From a virus: 44,878 bases of DNA. The stretch is taken from positions 1 to 44,878 of the IMG/VR virus record IMGVR_UViG_3300020553_000013; one strand, written 5' to 3'. The translations under genes and the position numbers were made by a program. Positions 37,038 to 44,878 of this stretch are shown here, piece by piece (within the stretch, counting starts at the first letter, position 1; every line of letters starts with the position of its first letter). Below the pieces are notes generated by a model that saw nothing but the letters and a program-made list of their open reading frames with translations, searched no databases and had not been told where the DNA came from.

Positions 37038-38621
37038 TTAAGCGGTTACTCTGCCCTCGCCTTTTGGATTTCTAGCCTCCCCAGAAATATCTGGAGAATT
37101 TGAATCCCGCTCCTGGGTTCGTTGACGAGAATTCATGGCTTGTGCAGTTTGCTCGGCAGCCTGTTGTGGTTTTAATTGAACTATTGTATCTCCACCATCA
37201 ATAGGGACCATGCCTTTTCTAATTCTTACCTCATTAGGGGTAATTACCTGCATTCTTAAATATCTCTCATCAATCTTAGATTGAGTATCCTCATCGGTTA
37301 GAGTTAGCTCATTAAACTTAATTAATAATACGTCAGTCTTTTCCTCAATAATTTTATTTAATTTCTTTTCTAAAATATCTTGGGCTGGACGGCATACCTG
37401 CTCTTTAAACATTTTATCTGAATCTCTGGCTGAAGCTAAATTAACTCCTTCAGGTAAACCTATCTTACTAATAGGTACTCTATGGGCCAAAAGAATTTCA
37501 TCTCTGTTTGCTTTTCTATATACGTTAAATGAGGATTCCTGAGAATTTGCCTCAATTGGCTCCATCTTAAATTCAACTTTAGAGTCTGCGCTATCTGCTG
37601 GAAGTGGAACATATAGAGATCTATGGTTCTTTCCTCTTAGACCCACCTGAAAAAATTCTAATAATTTACGCTCAGACTCAGGTGAAAGCTTTGCACCCTT
37701 AACTGTAATAATATATCTTGGTACCGCCTTGTTTTCAAAATAATCTAAATTGTATTTACCAGCAAATTCATTTCCAGCCATTGCATTCTGAGCCGCAATA
37801 ATATCTGCAATGCCGTAATAGTTATTCATTGGAGTATATTTCTTTAAATGAACAATTTCGTTTGGCCTATCTGATCCATCTGAAATTGGATTAGGTGTTT
37901 CTTGATCTCCAAAGTTACGGAAGAATACTGCCTTGCCATAAAGCAATTGAATAAATCCATCACGCAAGCGACGTACACGCATTGTCTTTGAAGGGATATG
38001 TCCGATATACCCTATATTGCCTGCAGTTGTTCTGCCAATTTCAATATAGCCATTTCCTGTTGCTTCAAGATCTACGTATGCTTTAATTAAAGTTTCTGTA
38101 AATGTTTCTTCCTCATTTGTTTCTTCTAGCCAAGATTCTAGATCTTGACGAAGCTTATTTAATTTACGACGTGCTCTATCTAATTGCCTCTCATCTGTAA
38201 TATTATCTAATGCCTCATTTGCCTTACGTGTTTCTACAAATGAAAATCCTAGTCCGACAATATTTGCAACTTTAGCATTAATTGCTGCATAGTTATACGG
38301 AGAGAATTCATAAATCCTGGAAAGATATTCTAGGTTATATGGTGGCTCGATAAGATCGAACATGGCATAGCCTGTTACGGCTTGTGCCATTAAATTTTGT
38401 TGTGTAGCAGTTCCTTCTTGGCCTACAAATCTTTTTTGTAAATCTCTTGATACTTTACGACGAAATGCTGGGCTTAAACCATTTACTTTCTTTAAATCTT
38501 CGCCTTCAATTTTAAATGGATCGTTTACAACAACTGGTTTATTATTAAACTTAATCCAATCAGATTGATCAGATATGCTGATTTGGTTTGACAGTTCTTC
38601 CGTGTCTTCAATAAATTCCAT
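37038..38621 (-). CDS. Portal protein (527 aa)
   Basis: HK97/SPP1-type portal. Distinguishing segments are SPYNYAAINAKVANIVGLGF, the wing helices (DRARRKLNKLRQDLESWLEE), YVDLEATGNGYIEIGRT, FIQLLYGKAVFFRNFGDQET, and MNNYYGIADIIAAQNAMAGN (the 'G...i..a......' stem region). It ends in a Gln-rich basic tail. The portal is the dodecameric ring through which DNA is packaged; it normally follows the terminase, which is not in this window. It starts one base after the small gene above and is followed by the protease gene. Confidence 0.93.
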   Translation of the reverse strand: MEFIEDTEELSNQISISDQSDWIKFNNKPVVVNDPFKIEGEDLKKVNGLSPAFRRKVSRDLQKRFVGQEGTATQQNLMAQAVTGYAMFDLIEPPYNLEYLSRIYEFSPYNYAAINAKVANIVGLGFSFVETRKANEALDNITDERQLDRARRKLNKLRQDLESWLEETNEEETFTETLIKAYVDLEATGNGYIEIGRTTAGNIGYIGHIPSKTMRVRRLRDGFIQLLYGKAVFFRNFGDQETPNPISDGSDRPNEIVHLKKYTPMNNYYGIADIIAAQNAMAGNEFAGKYNLDYFENKAVPRYIITVKGAKLSPESERKLLEFFQVGLRGKNHRSLYVPLPADSADSKVEFKMEPIEANSQESSFNVYRKANRDEILLAHRVPISKIGLPEGVNLASARDSDKMFKEQVCRPAQDILEKKLNKIIEEKTDVLLIKFNELTLTDEDTQSKIDERYLRMQVITPNEVRIRKGMVPIDGGDTIVQLKPQQAAEQTAQAMNSRQRTQERDSNSPDISGEARNPKGEGRVTA

Positions 38622-39019: not shown

Positions 39020-40885
39020 TTATACGTTTTGAATTACCAACCATTCATTATTATAAGCCTGAACTGAATTTTCTGTCAAGGTAATTGTGGAATCATCTAC
39101 TGTTACAGAGGCTTTGCTTATATAAAGGTCATAATGATTTAATATTTCACCGCCAGTAAACTGAGTTTCGTATAGTCCTAAATTCTGAATTAATGACTTT
39201 ACCGTTCCAATTAAGGAGTAACTGAACCTTATAGCCCCTGAAATAGCGTTGGTATAGGTTATGACCACATGATGAAGATCATCGGCTGTAAAGACGTCTG
39301 AGACGGCTGTAGCAGATGTTTTATTGACCCCATTGACGTATATTGAATTTACATTAGTTTTGCTAATTGCCCCAGCATTATTCCAAGAATAATTTGAAGC
39401 GGCGTACCCATTGGTAGCAGTTGAATTTACCAATCCGCTATTTGTCAGGTCATCTGGGGTATAGAAAAATTCTATAGTCTTGACTGGAATATTAGCATTA
39501 ATATAAAATCCAGCGTCAGCTGTTACCCTTATTCCATTCCTAAAGTCTCTAGATAGGATAGGATATTTATTTGGCCCTAAACTAATTGCTGGATTGCTAA
39601 TTCCAGACAGCCCATCAAATGTCGACATATAGCTTCCAGCATTTTGAGCATATACTATCTGATCATTATAAAAAGAAAGAGTTAAATTATAAAGCTTAGG
39701 TAGATACTTACTGTTATCTGTTGTAGACATAGTTATTTTTATATATACAAGACCTGATGAATTAAAGCTTCCTAATTTATATTGAGGTATAGATTCTCCA
39801 TTTATGCATTGGACCCAAGTAGAATTATCTACACTTGTTTCCACTATTATTCCATTGTCACCCTCCCATTCAATTTTAGAAGAGTCCATGGTTATACCCA
39901 ATGGGATAGATACTAGATCTGTTAAATACACTGTCTTAGATACTGCAGAATCTGAATATGCGATGGCTATAGAATTTTCTAATCCATCATAATATAAATC
40001 ACTTGTTAAAAAATAATCCCAAGATTTATTAGATGGGTAGCTATATCTAAATTTTCTATTTATGCCATTGTCGTAAAATTCAAATATTTGTCCGCCATCT
40101 GGATAAGCAATTTGAATAGGGTTTAAAAATCCGTTATCATTGTAATGATTTAGTATTTGAGATGAACTAAGGGCATACCTATATACTGCTGGGTCATCTA
40201 CAATAAAAGAATCTGAAGCATTTCCTGTAGTTCCAATTTGTAGGTTTAAAGATGTATTTGTAAATTCAAAATTTGATAAAGATTTGCTGGCAGCCAATTG
40301 ACCATCTACATATATAGACATACCCGTAACTGAGTATACTGCTACTACATGTAATGACTTTCTAAAGTTTGGAACTGTATAGTTTAAAACTTCCGCATTT
40401 AATTTAAATATTAAATTTCCACGTTGCCAAAATAGACCTACGTTATTTGTAGGGTCTGCGAATATAGTTGCTATATTAGTTGTAGATATTCTAGTATATA
40501 TCCATGCTTCTATTGTAAAATCATTATCTGATGTATATTTATTTCCAAACCCGCCTGATGCTGTAGAACCATAATAATCAAAAGTAGTGGGAACTAGCAT
40601 GTAGTTTGTATTTGTTATTTTTGCTGCATGACTTCCGCCAGATGTTAATGGTAAAAATGTATCTGTTAGATCTCCTTGATATATACCATCATTTCCACAT
40701 CCAGATTTATCAAATATAGTATTGGATACTATTTCCCTGTATGTTGAAAAATCATCTTCAAATTCTTGATATGTATCATATGTGTCTAATACATCTTGAT
40801 ATGAGCCTATTAATGAAGTATATGTTTCAGATATTGGATAATATACAATAGGGTGGTCTTTTAATATTTTTAATTGATAAGACAT
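39020..40885 (-). CDS. Virion protein with two LamG/concanavalin-like domains (621 aa)
   Basis: The protein begins with HPIVYYPIS and 'DKSGCGNDGIYQGDLT', the standard opening of laminin-G/concanavalin-like domains. The first domain is about 105-250 (NDFTIEAWIYTRI, LHVVAVYSVTGMSIYVDGQL, ending YALSSSQILNHYND). A second, more divergent copy is about 455-605 (TIEFFYTPDDLTN, DDLHHVVITYTNAISGAIRF, ending FTGGEILNHYDLY). Between them is a beta region. Such lectin-like domains bind glycans and decorate fibres or capsids. It precedes the head block, and is probably a receptor-binding or surface-decoration protein. Confidence 0.8.
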   Translation of the reverse strand: MSYQLKILKDHPIVYYPISETYTSLIGSYQDVLDTYDTYQEFEDDFSTYREIVSNTIFDKSGCGNDGIYQGDLTDTFLPLTSGGSHAAKITNTNYMLVPTTFDYYGSTASGGFGNKYTSDNDFTIEAWIYTRISTTNIATIFADPTNNVGLFWQRGNLIFKLNAEVLNYTVPNFRKSLHVVAVYSVTGMSIYVDGQLAASKSLSNFEFTNTSLNLQIGTTGNASDSFIVDDPAVYRYALSSSQILNHYNDNGFLNPIQIAYPDGGQIFEFYDNGINRKFRYSYPSNKSWDYFLTSDLYYDGLENSIAIAYSDSAVSKTVYLTDLVSIPLGITMDSSKIEWEGDNGIIVETSVDNSTWVQCINGESIPQYKLGSFNSSGLVYIKITMSTTDNSKYLPKLYNLTLSFYNDQIVYAQNAGSYMSTFDGLSGISNPAISLGPNKYPILSRDFRNGIRVTADAGFYINANIPVKTIEFFYTPDDLTNSGLVNSTATNGYAASNYSWNNAGAISKTNVNSIYVNGVNKTSATAVSDVFTADDLHHVVITYTNAISGAIRFSYSLIGTVKSLIQNLGLYETQFTGGEILNHYDLYISKASVTVDDSTITLTENSVQAYNNEWLVIQNV

Positions 40886-40911: not shown

Positions 40912-41049
40912 TTATTGTTGTCCTTGTGCTTGTGAAATTTTTTCTAAACCTATTTCTTCAAGTCTTTGACGTCTTTCAATATCTTCTTGAGTATATTCTC
41001 TTTCAGTAATTTCTCCAGTAGAAATATTAATTTCTGTTATATCTGTCAT
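40912..41049 (-). CDS. Small hypothetical protein, 45 aa
   Basis: ATG 41049 overlaps the stop of the collagen-like gene (ATGA), with GGGAG at good spacing; an open frame upstream belongs to the collagen gene's region and is not used. The protein, [20 protein letters not shown] then a Gln-rich charged helix, resembles the short 'TGE..eR..T.eE' proteins often seen beside phage fibre genes. It may be a fibre assembly helper; that is a guess from context. Confidence 0.65.
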
Positions 41050-42365
41050 GTTGTACTCCCTAAAACTGAAAAATATGTAGCTGTACTGCCGCTGCCACCC
41101 CATGTTCCAGAACCTATTATTAAATCAAAAGTAATTGAACTTATTGGAGATGTACTATCCCAAATTCCATTTACATATCTAACCATTGGATATCCATTAG
41201 ATGTAACGCTAGGCCTGCCAGTTAACATAAAATTATATGATTTTGCATTAGTAGTTGATAAATTATCAAAAATTTCAAGTTGACAACCACCACCACTAAC
41301 TGGACAAAGATAAAAACCTGGATCTGATGATAATGGAGCGCTGAACGAGCCCCCAACGTATCCTTGAAAATAAGTACCAGAAGAACCTGTGCCACCATAA
41401 TATGTAGAATCTGGACGATATCCTATCCATTCTAATTGAGAATAACCAAATTTTTCATTTGCGGCTCCTCCTCCATTAAATGACATAGTAACAAGTTGTG
41501 TAAATCCATTATCGGCTGGAGATCCTAAAGTTCCGCCAAAAGTTGAATTTCTATTCCATAATATTTTAAGTCTATTATAAGAGGAAAGACCAGAAAGTGT
41601 AACTGTAGTTCCTGTACTTACTGATTGTGCTGTAATTATAGAAACCCATCCTGTTGATGTAGAAACAGAACCACTTGGGCCTGATGGGCCTGATGGGCCT
41701 GATGGGCCTGATGGGCCTGTAGCACCTTGTGGACCTGATGGGCCTGTAGCACCTGATGGGCCTGTTGATCCTGATGGACCTGAAACTCCTTGTGCGCCAC
41801 TAGGACCTGTATCTCCTGTATTACCTTGTGGACCTGATGGGCCTGATGGGCCTGATGGTCCTGATGGTCCTGATGGGCCTGTAGCACCTGTTACACCTTG
41901 AGGTCCTGTTGGTCCAGTTGGTCCTTGTAATGGTCCAACATTTAACCATTGTGATCCATCCCAAACATATAAATCTGGGCCAACAACATATCCATCTCCA
42001 ATAGTTCCTGTTGGGTGTGCTGTTTGTAATGCACCTAATGTAGCATAGCTACCAAGTATTGTTACTCCCGCTCCTTGTGCTCCAGTTGCTCCTGATGGAC
42101 CTGACGGACCAGTTGCGCCAGTTGGCCCTGTGGGACCAGTAGCACCTGTTGCACCTGACGGACCTGATGGACCTGATGGGCCTGAAACACCTGATGGACC
42201 TGATGGACCTGATGGACCTGATGGGCCTGATGGGCCTGATGGGCCAGTTGGTCCTGGATGAGCGGTTAAATAAGCATCTACATCTTCAGCTAAATACTCT
42301 AAGTCTCTTGGAACATCTGGAGTATCTGAATATACTGGATAGCGAAAGCCTTTGGCTGTAGTCAT
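41046..42365 (-). CDS. Collagen-like fibre protein (439 aa)
   Basis: Two Gly-X-Y tracts, at about residues 34-98 and 148-237, are built almost wholly of GPS, GPT, GAT and GPQ triplets, a collagen triple helix. They flank a ~48-residue insert ([20 protein letters not shown] then [14 protein letters not shown]) that resembles small carbohydrate-binding or tail-fibre modules with exposed Trp. The C-terminal ~200 residues are a beta-rich globular tip ([20 protein letters not shown] and on) with several Cys and Gly-rich loops. The product is likely a trimeric fibre. A GT4 glycosyltransferase gene precedes it by two bases. Confidence 0.88.
41678..42250 (-). repeat. Tandem 9-base coding repeats of the collagen tracts
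   Basis: Runs of a nine-base unit, read on the minus strand as GGCCCATCA (Gly-Pro-Ser), with single-base variants, occur at 41678-41721, 41845-41879 and 42150-42245. They are in frame, so changes in copy number would lengthen or shorten the fibre without a frameshift. Confidence 0.75.
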
Positions 42366-42367
42366 TT

Positions 42368-43441
42368 TTAAATTATACCACTCTCAGGTTTATAACTATA
42401 CCAGCCATCATCCCATAAGGTAAGTAATTTATTGAAGTATTTATCATATTTTTGGGCGGTTATTTCAAGGGAATAGGTGTCTACTGCCCTCCGCCATATT
42501 TGTGCTGGATTTAAATATTTTACCTTTTCTGTAGCATCACAAAACTCCTGAAATGATCTACATCTATATCCTGTTAATCCATTAATATTAGTTTCTGTAA
42601 ATGCTCCCCAGTCTGTAGTTATTGTTGGGGTGCCGCAAAAATGTGCTTCTGGAACTATATTTCCAAATGGCTCTAAATAAAGAGTGGGTGCAAATAATGC
42701 TGTTGCTCCACCCATTAATTTCCTTCTTTCTTCTGGACCAACTACTCCAACATATTCTCCATATTCTGGAGGGGTTCCAGGACCAGCAAGTATCAATCTT
42801 TTATTTAATTTCTTACAAACTTCTACTGCTATATTGTATCCTTTACGATCTATTAATCTTCCCAGATATAAATAATAATCTTCTTTATCTTCTTGTAGTT
42901 TAAATTCTGTAGGATCAAAATAACCTGGAATTACCTCATCATAGAATAATCCATCTACAGTTGTTGGATCTTTATATCCAGCATAATTTGCATGCATCCA
43001 GGCATATGATTCCCATACTCTATATTTAGCAAATGTGGATCCGTATCCTATACCAAATTCTACTGACATAAATTCTGGTAAGGCATCTGCAATTGGTTTA
43101 TGAGAAGTTCCACCTATAAAACAAAGGAAGTCTTTTTGTCCTGCCCGTTTTTTAATTTCATTAATTACATTATTATTAAATATTTGCCAATGTGGTAAAT
43201 TAATATCAAATGAGGCAGAGGTATAATGATTATTTCCTACCGCTTCTTTTCTTTGTTCTTCAGTAATACAAGTAATCAATTCGTCACATGGAGTCTGATT
43301 TTCTTCTCCAGCATATAAATATACAGTATGACCTATAGACTTCATCATTTTACAAAAACCAATTATTTTAGATGTAAATGCACAGCTAGAATATTGATCT
43401 GTTGTTTGAGTATGCGGTAAACTTACCACATGAAATATCAT
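42368..43441 (-). CDS. GT4-family glycosyltransferase (GT-B fold)
   Basis: A 357-aa enzyme. The C-terminal Rossmann domain has [20 protein letters not shown] and [20 protein letters not shown], followed by [20 protein letters not shown]. These are the GT4 donor-binding motifs, including the E-x7-E-like pair and the conserved Pro-Thr loop. The N-terminal acceptor half starts [12 protein letters not shown] and contains [22 protein letters not shown]4 enzymes use nucleotide-activated sugars. It is embedded between the glycine-rich adhesin and the collagen-like fibre, with only short gaps, and may glycosylate one of them. Substrate is unknown. Confidence 0.85.
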
Positions 43442-43455
43442 TTAATTCCTAACTG

Positions 43456-44878
43456 TTATAGTGTGTATCTAATTATAAAAATTCCTGAACCGCCATTACC
43501 AGTTTCTCCATTATCTGGGCCATTTCCTCCACTACCGCCACCAGTATTAGCAGTACCTGCGGTAGTTCTTGTAGAGTCTATTCCACCAGAAGTTCCTCCA
43601 CCTAAACCACCAGAACCAGCAGAACCAGGACTAAATGGGCCTCCGCCGCCGCCACCTGCATAAAAATAATTTCCTCCAGATAATTGTCCAGTGCTAGTAA
43701 CTTGTCCCATATTATTAATAATTGCATTTGTTGTTCCTGAAATTCCATTTCCACCATTTCCAGCTGTACTACCAGATGCTGCCGATCCAGCGGCCCCCGC
43801 TCCGCCGCCTCCGCCGCCACCCCAAGGACCAGAACCAGCACCAGTGCCAAAACCTCCGTTATTACCATATCCAGTTGCCCCACCAGTACTGCTTTGTGTT
43901 GTAGTACCACGGGAAGAACTTACGTGACCACCACCTCCTGAACCTCCATTTATTGTTCCGCCATTACCTCCGCCTGCGCCACCTCCATTAGAAGTAATTG
44001 TGCTAAATGTAGAATTTGTTCCAACAGTGGGGGCACCACTATTTGTTCCTGTGCCTCCCGCTCCAATACTTACTGTATAAGTTCCTGTTGAAACAGATCT
44101 TGAAGATTGAAAAGAGACTCCTCCGCCTCCTCCGCCGCCGCCATGTCTACGTCCACCTGCTCCTCCTCCTGCAACAAGTAGTACGTCTGCAGTTAATGAT
44201 CTATCTACAACAAGATTTCCAGTAGATGTAAATACTCTATAAAAATATCCTCCAGATGTATAAAGGGTTCCTCCAGAAGCTGGATCGCCATTTGGTGTCA
44301 CAGAACTAGTTGCGGAACTTGCCGCCGATGTTCCATTAGCGTTAGTTGCTGTAATCGTAAATGTATATGCGGTTCCATTAGTTAATCCAGTAAATGTATA
44401 AGGAGATGATGAGGCGGACTGTGTTGTAGTCGTGCTTGCTGGGCTTGAAGTAATTGAATATCCTGTAATAGAGGATCCTCCTGTACCATTTGCAGAAAAC
44501 GCAACCGATACCTGTAAATTTCCTCCAGTTACAGATGTAATACTTGGAGCCTGTGGCACAGTTGTTGCAGTTACGCCAGATGAGGCGGATGAAGCGGCAG
44601 ATGTACCATATGGGCTAGTTGATGCAACTGTATAAGTATACTGTGTGTTTGATGCAAGATTAGTTACTGTGATTGGAGATGAAGAACCTGTAAATGTAGA
44701 AGGAGATGTTGAAGGAGATGGGGTAACTATGAAAGATGATGTTATTCCACCAGTAGTTCCCGCCGAAAATGCTACTGAGGCAGAGCCATTATTAAATGCT
44801 CGGCCTGATCCTTGATTTGTTGCAACAACTGATGTTGGTGCTGAGGGAGGGGCTGCAATAGCGAACCATCCTGTTGAA
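43456..44878 (-). CDS. Fn3/glycine-rich adhesin (5' end cut by window)
   Basis: The frame is open at the window edge, so the start is not seen; a GTG at 44559 is internal. Visible are two Fn3-like domains (the partial one around 44865-44590 with SSPITVTNLASNTQYTYTVA, and 44560-44290 with SPYTFTGLTNGTAYTFTITA). Then comes a glycine-rich C-terminal part beginning YRVFTSTGNLVVDRSLTADV and continuing in long poly-Gly runs (GGRRHGGGGGGGG; GPWGGGGGGGAG). This is the layout of phage adhesins with polyglycine-II sandwich domains (as in T-even gp38). Fn3 repeats bring the adhesin to the host glycan. It leads the surface block. Confidence 0.85.
   Translation of the reverse strand, partial: STGWFAIAAPPSAPTSVVATNQGSGRAFNNGSASVAFSAGTTGGITSSFIVTPSPSTSPSTFTGSSSPITVTNLASNTQYTYTVASTSPYGTSAASSASSGVTATTVPQAPSITSVTGGNLQVSVAFSANGTGGSSITGYSITSSPASTTTTQSASSSPYTFTGLTNGTAYTFTITATNANGTSAASSATSSVTPNGDPASGGTLYTSGGYFYRVFTSTGNLVVDRSLTADVLLVAGGGAGGRRHGGGGGGGGVSFQSSRSVSTGTYTVSIGAGGTGTNSGAPTVGTNSTFSTITSNGGGAGGGNGGTINGGSGGGGHVSSSRGTTTQSSTGGATGYGNNGGFGTGAGSGPWGGGGGGGAGAAGSAASGSTAGNGGNGISGTTNAIINNMGQVTSTGQLSGGNYFYAGGGGGGPFSPGSAGSGGLGGGTSGGIDSTRTTAGTANTGGGSGGNGPDNGETGNGGSGIFIIRYTL

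Follow-up and report, generated by a model that had tools for sequence, protein, structure and literature searches.

A viral glycosyltransferase gene adjoining a collagen-like fibre gene, and the enzymes that may take its place in related phages

The closest described system to the one considered here comes from Clostridioides difficile, in which the gene for the glycosyltransferase SgtA lies immediately upstream of bclA3 and the enzyme, a GT2 domain joined to TPRs, adds beta-O-GlcNAc to the threonines of the BclA3 collagen repeats (PMC7157674). This report deals with a similar gene pair in a 44,878-nucleotide stretch of viral DNA from IMG/VR record IMGVR_UViG_3300020553_000013, referred to below as the window. 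Here the gene for a GT4-type glycosyltransferase (the GT) is followed on the minus strand by the gene for a collagen-like fibre, whose start codon lies 2 nt past the GT stop codon and thus just beyond the interval 42368-44878 on which the original prediction for this locus was made. We consider it probable that the GT is a dedicated O-glycosyltransferase for the serines and threonines at the Y position of the Gly-X-Y repeats of this putative virion fibre (Table 1).

As with SgtA and BclA3, a glycosyltransferase gene adjoins a gene for a Gly-X-Thr collagen-like surface protein with Thr/Ser-rich repeats, and a UDP-sugar donor is suggested for the GT by its fold; the window arrangement is recurrent. 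However, SgtA is a GT2 enzyme with C-terminal TPRs and the GT is an unrelated GT4 enzyme with a GT-B fold, so that the window pair would function like SgtA and BclA3 without belonging to the same enzyme family. Two phage enzymes that replace the GT4 in related phages (loci L296 and L302) do have the SgtA architecture (GT2-TPR), a likeness of architecture alone. The BclA exosporium glycoproteins of Bacillus also have GPT/GXT repeats, and BclA_C proteins adjoin some Firmicutes homologues of the GT; however, BclA belongs to a spore coat whereas the window fibre is a putative part of a virion, and the known Bacillus BclA glycosylation genes differ from the GT. The collagen-like region of BclA is reported to bear oligosaccharides (Daubenspeck 2004) and threonine glycosylation stabilises collagen (Bann 2000), both as cited in PMC3368898.

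Among viruses, the virion proteins of mycobacteriophages are glycosylated at the C-termini of the capsid and tail tube proteins (Freeman et al. 2023, as cited in PMC12619734), and the window pair would resemble them with another target, the collagen-like fibre. Mimivirus encodes a collagen plus its modifying enzymes (PMC9546862). However, in mimivirus, and with the animal GT25/PLOD enzymes, the glycans are on hydroxylysine, whereas there is no lysine among the 50 Gly-X-Y triplets of the window fibre; in addition, queries with phage 2-oxoglutarate (2OG) enzymes found no 2OG-Fe(II) hydroxylase in the window, the record being a fragment. The route through sugars on hydroxy-residues, which the original prediction had brought up, is therefore not favoured for this window. 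The E. coli prophage collagens EPclA/B (PMC3368898) are phage collagen-like proteins too, but their repeats are charge-stabilised and the recombinant form tested was unglycosylated.

The GT matches the Pfam model Glycos_transf_1 (E 7.9e-12) and PHROG 3408, annotated as glycosyltransferase (E 1.2e-85), and no curated NCBIfam model scored above its cut-off for it; E-values produced by our scripts are valid for the local sequence sets only. As judged from 24 aligned homologues, its catalytic residues are intact: the E-x7-E pair (E257 and E265), the phosphate-binding arginine R195 and the lysine K200 are invariant down to 34% identity. The AlphaFold model (pLDDT 84) has a GT-B fold, and the best matches in a structure search were a cyanobacterial alpha-1,2-glucosyltransferase, tetrahydrobiopterin glucosyltransferases and AviGT4. 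The donor is likely to be a UDP-sugar, because several of these nearest folds were solved with UDP.

The 50 triplets of the fibre have 27 serines and 16 threonines at Y (43 of 50), proline at X in 33 and a single charged residue, in agreement with the Ser/Thr-rich tracts that had been noticed at first. The many matches of the fibre to tail-fibre PHROGs depend largely on these repeats.

The pairing is not peculiar to the window. The GT is present in hundreds of viral contigs, and because these records are fragments among which near-copies are frequent, counts by cluster and contrasts on a tree were used. The locus sets were limited to the best 80 loci per search, which favours near relatives, and open reading frames were assigned with a simple greedy procedure. 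Eighty-five distinct phage GT loci had enough flank, and a collagen tract is present in the flanking DNA examined at 84 of them, so that GT and collagen-like genes do travel together in relatives as had been proposed. The sole locus without a collagen has a polyglycine gene 12 nt from the GT, and hence none of the 85 lacks a collagen-like or glycine-rich neighbour. The Pfam collagen model is matched in every one of the 33 records that carry the GT and are 25 kb or longer. At 54 of the 85 loci the collagen is no more than 60 nt from the GT (38 on the upstream side and 16 on the downstream side), and none of these tracts has a Ser/Thr fraction at Y below 0.54 or more than 7% charged residues. 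The adjacency is not due to chance, because it recurs in many contigs.

The same association was seen from the side of the fibre. A scan that was blind to the enzyme, with only the 41-residue N-terminus (the anchor) of the fibre as its query, together with anchored fibres from other searches, gave 104 fibre genes, 59 of them distinct, in 27 clusters. Immediately upstream, 14 clusters have a PHROG 3408 glycosyltransferase and one a GT2-TPR enzyme, 11 have a 2OG-Fe(II) oxygenase, mostly as part of a run of at least four, and the remaining cluster has a short-chain dehydrogenase/reductase (SDR) that itself follows two 2OG genes. The repeats differ with the enzyme: GT-linked tracts have 26-58 Ser/Thr at Y (median 43) and the others 0-20 (median 5; Mann-Whitney U test, p 1.2e-5), and lysines per triplet are none or almost none in the GT-linked tracts and up to 0.20 in the others (p 8e-4). 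In other words, long, uncharged, Ser/Thr-rich tracts are found beside glycosyltransferases, and short or charged ones, some with lysine, beside oxygenases.

A third sampling picked phage collagens by the DNA pattern of the tract alone, 109 of the GPT type and 92 charged. A glycosyltransferase of the modelled families lies within two genes of 18 of the GPT-type collagens and of none of the charged ones (Fisher p 1.6e-5). For 2OG enzymes the tendency is the opposite and weak (1 of 109 versus 6 of 92, p 0.049). Among the first 25 Pfam families tallied for the direct neighbours of each class, the GPT-type collagens have seven GT2 and at least one GT4, and no glycosyltransferase is listed for the charged collagens.

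Gain and loss were followed on a tree of 61 portal proteins, counting supported branches, which gave at least five gains or losses of the GT. A Ser/Thr-rich fibre accompanies the GT in all five pairs of independent contrasts, and in the close pairs L003/L161 and L006/L168 the GT and the fibre differ jointly. Each of the nine distinct GT-bearing portals goes with an anchored fibre, and the GT is missing at all 22 portals that lack such a fibre; 2OG genes are present without an anchored fibre at 15 portals.

Homologues in bacteria display a related pattern. Those from Firmicutes in GTDB, about 38-45% identical to the GT, are directly downstream of a GxT-rich collagen-like gene at 24 of the 27 loci with readable upstream DNA, and these loci appear to be chromosomal and not prophage. 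Five of the Firmicutes collagen proteins were scanned whole (L686, L672, L683, L693 and L696), and BclA_C was above the cut-off in two and just below it in one. The BclA_C-type collagens paired with a GT4 (L662-L698) are probably spore-coat glycoproteins.

These comparative tests strongly support the proposal that the GT acts on the adjacent fibre. Presumably the GT is translated directly ahead of the fibre, from a late transcript that the two genes probably share. Acting in the host cytoplasm, the enzyme would attach a sugar (probably a hexose or HexNAc, with a UDP-sugar as donor) to the Ser/Thr at Y of Gly-Pro-Ser, Gly-Pro-Thr and Gly-Ala-Thr triplets. Because uncharged GPS/GPT tracts have neither the salt bridges nor the hydroxyproline by which other collagens are stabilised, the role of the sugars would be to stabilise the triple helix of the fibre. 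They would also protect it against proteases and might adjust its contact with the host.

Several observations weigh against this assignment. The nearest solved folds use small molecules or oligosaccharides as acceptors, and the fold does not identify the acceptor of the GT. At about one-third of the phage loci other fibre genes are present between the collagen and the GT, and some collagens are kilobases away. For the majority of GPT-type phage collagens no glycosyltransferase of the modelled families is adjacent, so that an adjacent one is not obligatory. The tree has five independent events only, for which the minimum p of a sign test is 0.0625. Finally, the Nocardia homologues (L637-L659, L685 and L689) are located in ESX/type VII secretion loci and not beside collagen. 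Several copies of these are present in one genome, with EccB or WXG100 and Gly/Ser-rich proteins as neighbours, some of them enriched in short G-A-T-G-like motifs, and the Nocardia enzymes may have a different acceptor.

Glycosyltransferases in phage host-recognition regions are common and are usually read as modifiers of the host surface (PMC7029224). On this view the GT might change a teichoic acid or other envelope sugar and so block superinfection or later adsorption, its site in the fibre region resulting from the joint exchange of host-recognition genes. In addition, the Streptomyces phages Emma1919 (L153:3629-5604) and Muntaha (L156:4845-5828) have one or two glycosyltransferase genes upstream of the LamG-like gene, a GT4 in Emma1919, and collagen is not annotated at these sites. 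However, this explanation predicts neither the preference for Ser/Thr-rich uncharged tracts over fibres generally nor the occurrence of this GT next to BclA-type genes in Firmicutes genomes. The GT also has no transmembrane-like stretch (maximum 19-residue hydropathy 0.92), and it does not look like a Gtr-type enzyme of O-antigen or serotype conversion, which is membrane-embedded and has flippase partners, its own neighbours being structural genes. We therefore regard a role on the host surface as unlikely.

It is rather improbable that the GT glycosylates other virion proteins, such as the capsid or tail tube, or several of the module's fibres, the glycine-rich ones among them. Two observations would fit: Streptomyces phages that lack collagen have glycosyltransferases in the corresponding slot, and where the collagen is distant, glycine-rich genes often intervene between it and the GT. 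In the window lineage, however, the 22 portals that have no anchored fibre all lack the GT as well, even though capsid and tail genes are present there. The glycine-rich gene of the window was considered as a partner as well. The original prediction placed the GT between a polyglycine adhesin and a collagen-like fibre, and all three genes are indeed present on one strand in the order fn3/glycine-rich gene, GT and fibre, although adhesin is a putative label. The gene that precedes the GT is a polyglycine gene in some relatives and a short reading frame, a DUF6065-like gene or another gene in others. The polyglycine gene is replaced in the close relatives L006, L233 and L332, and it was rejected as a conserved partner of the GT.

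A role in glycosylating phage DNA bases against host nucleases, as proposed for the glycosyltransferases of Nanopelagicales phages (PMC10202952), has in its favour that DNA-modifying phage glycosyltransferases exist (Pyle 2024, as cited in PMC12619734) and that the phage HY126 enzyme is also among the structural matches of the GT, but the position in a structural module, the gain and loss with the fibre and the cellular homologues beside collagen genes make it very improbable. Freshwater actinophages have variable islands with collagen-like genes (PMC10202952), and some collagens are kilobases from the GT, but that the two genes are functionally unrelated and are simply frequent cargo of the same island is hardly credible, as neither gene orders of both kinds within tens of nucleotides, nor the co-variation with tract chemistry, nor the bacterial homologues would then be expected.

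Returning to the proposed glycosylation of the fibre by the adjacent GT, the slot beside the collagen is not always filled by this enzyme. In a group of phages with contigs of about 40 kb the same GT4 precedes phrog_7578 at 33 of 42 loci, and elsewhere a GT2-TPR gene is found, with or without a GT25 gene. Co-occurrence within this group was set aside as evidence because nearly all of its members carry both a glycosyltransferase and a collagen, which makes it uninformative. Other freshwater phages have GT25 and GT2-TPR genes in the collagen-side slot (L302:4776-6409 and L296:6959-8014), and there most triplets have threonine at Y. The nearest PDB match of the phage GT2-TPR catalytic domain is GmaR, a flagellin O-GlcNAc transferase. 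That different folds (GT4, GT25 and GT2-TPR) occupy one slot points to a shared task. The window has a GT25 gene (750-1445) and a methyltransferase/GT32 fusion (2-763), but they are at its opposite end beside DNA-metabolism genes, far from the fibre and unlinked to it; their inclusion in the system, as first suggested, was not upheld, yet GT25 fills the collagen-side slot in other phages as just described.

The oxygenase-linked fibres have patterns of their own. Directly upstream of the anchored fibre, four to six 2OG-Fe(II) oxygenase genes may stand in a run (L192:367-5441; also L177, L198, L201, L203, L212 and L321-L394), and upstream of that fibre these runs and the GT are mutually exclusive. 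Pfam confirmed PF13640 in L192 and in a neutral neighbour set. Cyanophage GT homologues beside PiuC had raised the idea of a joint hydroxylation and glycosylation route, which is not general, since a 2OG gene lies within four genes of the GT at only two of the 85 loci. In the cluster with an SDR (L359) the repeats have proline at Y. The gene that follows the oxygenase-class collagen at L192 (6752-7732) has PASTA and weak intein-splicing matches. At L190 (1128-2702), and also at L351, L352, L354, L362, L374, L375 and L383, a gene for a flavin-dependent tryptophan halogenase (PF04820 in L190, E 6e-107) lies upstream of the GT and collagen genes at a distance of a few genes; its substrate might be the aromatic residues of the fibre. 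DUF6065/phrog_7084 proteins of about 240 residues recur among the fibre-modification genes (L228:1365-2090, L192:1026-2466 and L175:1656-2390).

As to its origin, the window (44.9 kb, 36% G+C) is probably a fragment of a freshwater actinophage, its host being deduced from similarity of the portal and LamG-like proteins, which place it near Streptomyces phages. Portal identity to these phages is 57-60%; the two of them that were looked up belong to the Stanwilliamsviridae, and homologues of the LamG-like gene are present in 111 Streptomyces phage records.

Table 1. Features at and near the glycosyltransferase-fibre pair (window positions)
Feature	Position	Strand	Basis and remarks
GT4-type glycosyltransferase, PHROG 3408 family, 357 aa, soluble	42368..43441	-	PF00534/PF13692, phrog_3408
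Collagen-like fibre, 439 aa	41046..42365	-	PF01391 E 1.1e-19, many tail-fibre PHROGs
Fibre N-terminal anchor, 41 aa	42243..42365	-	Alignment and scan; common to GT-linked and oxygenase-linked fibres
First Gly-X-Y tract, 21 triplets, GPS/GPT/GAT	42066..42254	-	
Second Gly-X-Y tract, 29 triplets	41664..41924	-	
Fibre C-terminal region, putative tip	41049..41663	-	Sequence; no Pfam match
fn3 + glycine-rich tail/fibre gene	43456..44877+	-	PF00041 (two fn3 domains), PF21722 (Gly_rich_2); 5' end outside window
LamG-like conserved gene	39020..40885	-	PF13385; lower border of variable fibre slot
Portal protein	37038..38621	-	phrog_12; lineage marker

These patterns lead to a broader idea, for and against which we see about equal chances, namely that phages have exchangeable cassettes for fibre maturation, in which one anchored fibre is combined with interchangeable enzymes (GT4, GT25, GT2-TPR, batteries of 2OG-Fe(II) oxygenases and, in some cases, a flavin halogenase encoded farther upstream) and the amino-acid make-up of the repeats evolves in step with the adjacent enzyme. 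The literature searched did not contain this combination of one anchored fibre, exchangeable tailoring enzymes and repeats of matching chemistry, which is no proof that the combination is undescribed.

In conclusion, if the cassette idea is true, many phage glycosyltransferases and 2OG oxygenases that are classed as auxiliary metabolic would be fibre-modifying enzymes. Cyanophage 2OG oxygenases, for example, have been read as modulators of host 2-oxoglutarate (PMC3037559), and the pairing described here suggests that many such enzymes modify the fibres of the virus itself and not the host surface, DNA or 2-oxoglutarate. A glycosyltransferase family without a curated NCBIfam match would thereby gain a clear partner and a predicted acceptor motif, with a range that covers phages and Firmicutes with BclA-type collagens, and the GT could provide a small enzyme for the production of stable glycosylated collagen in bacteria.
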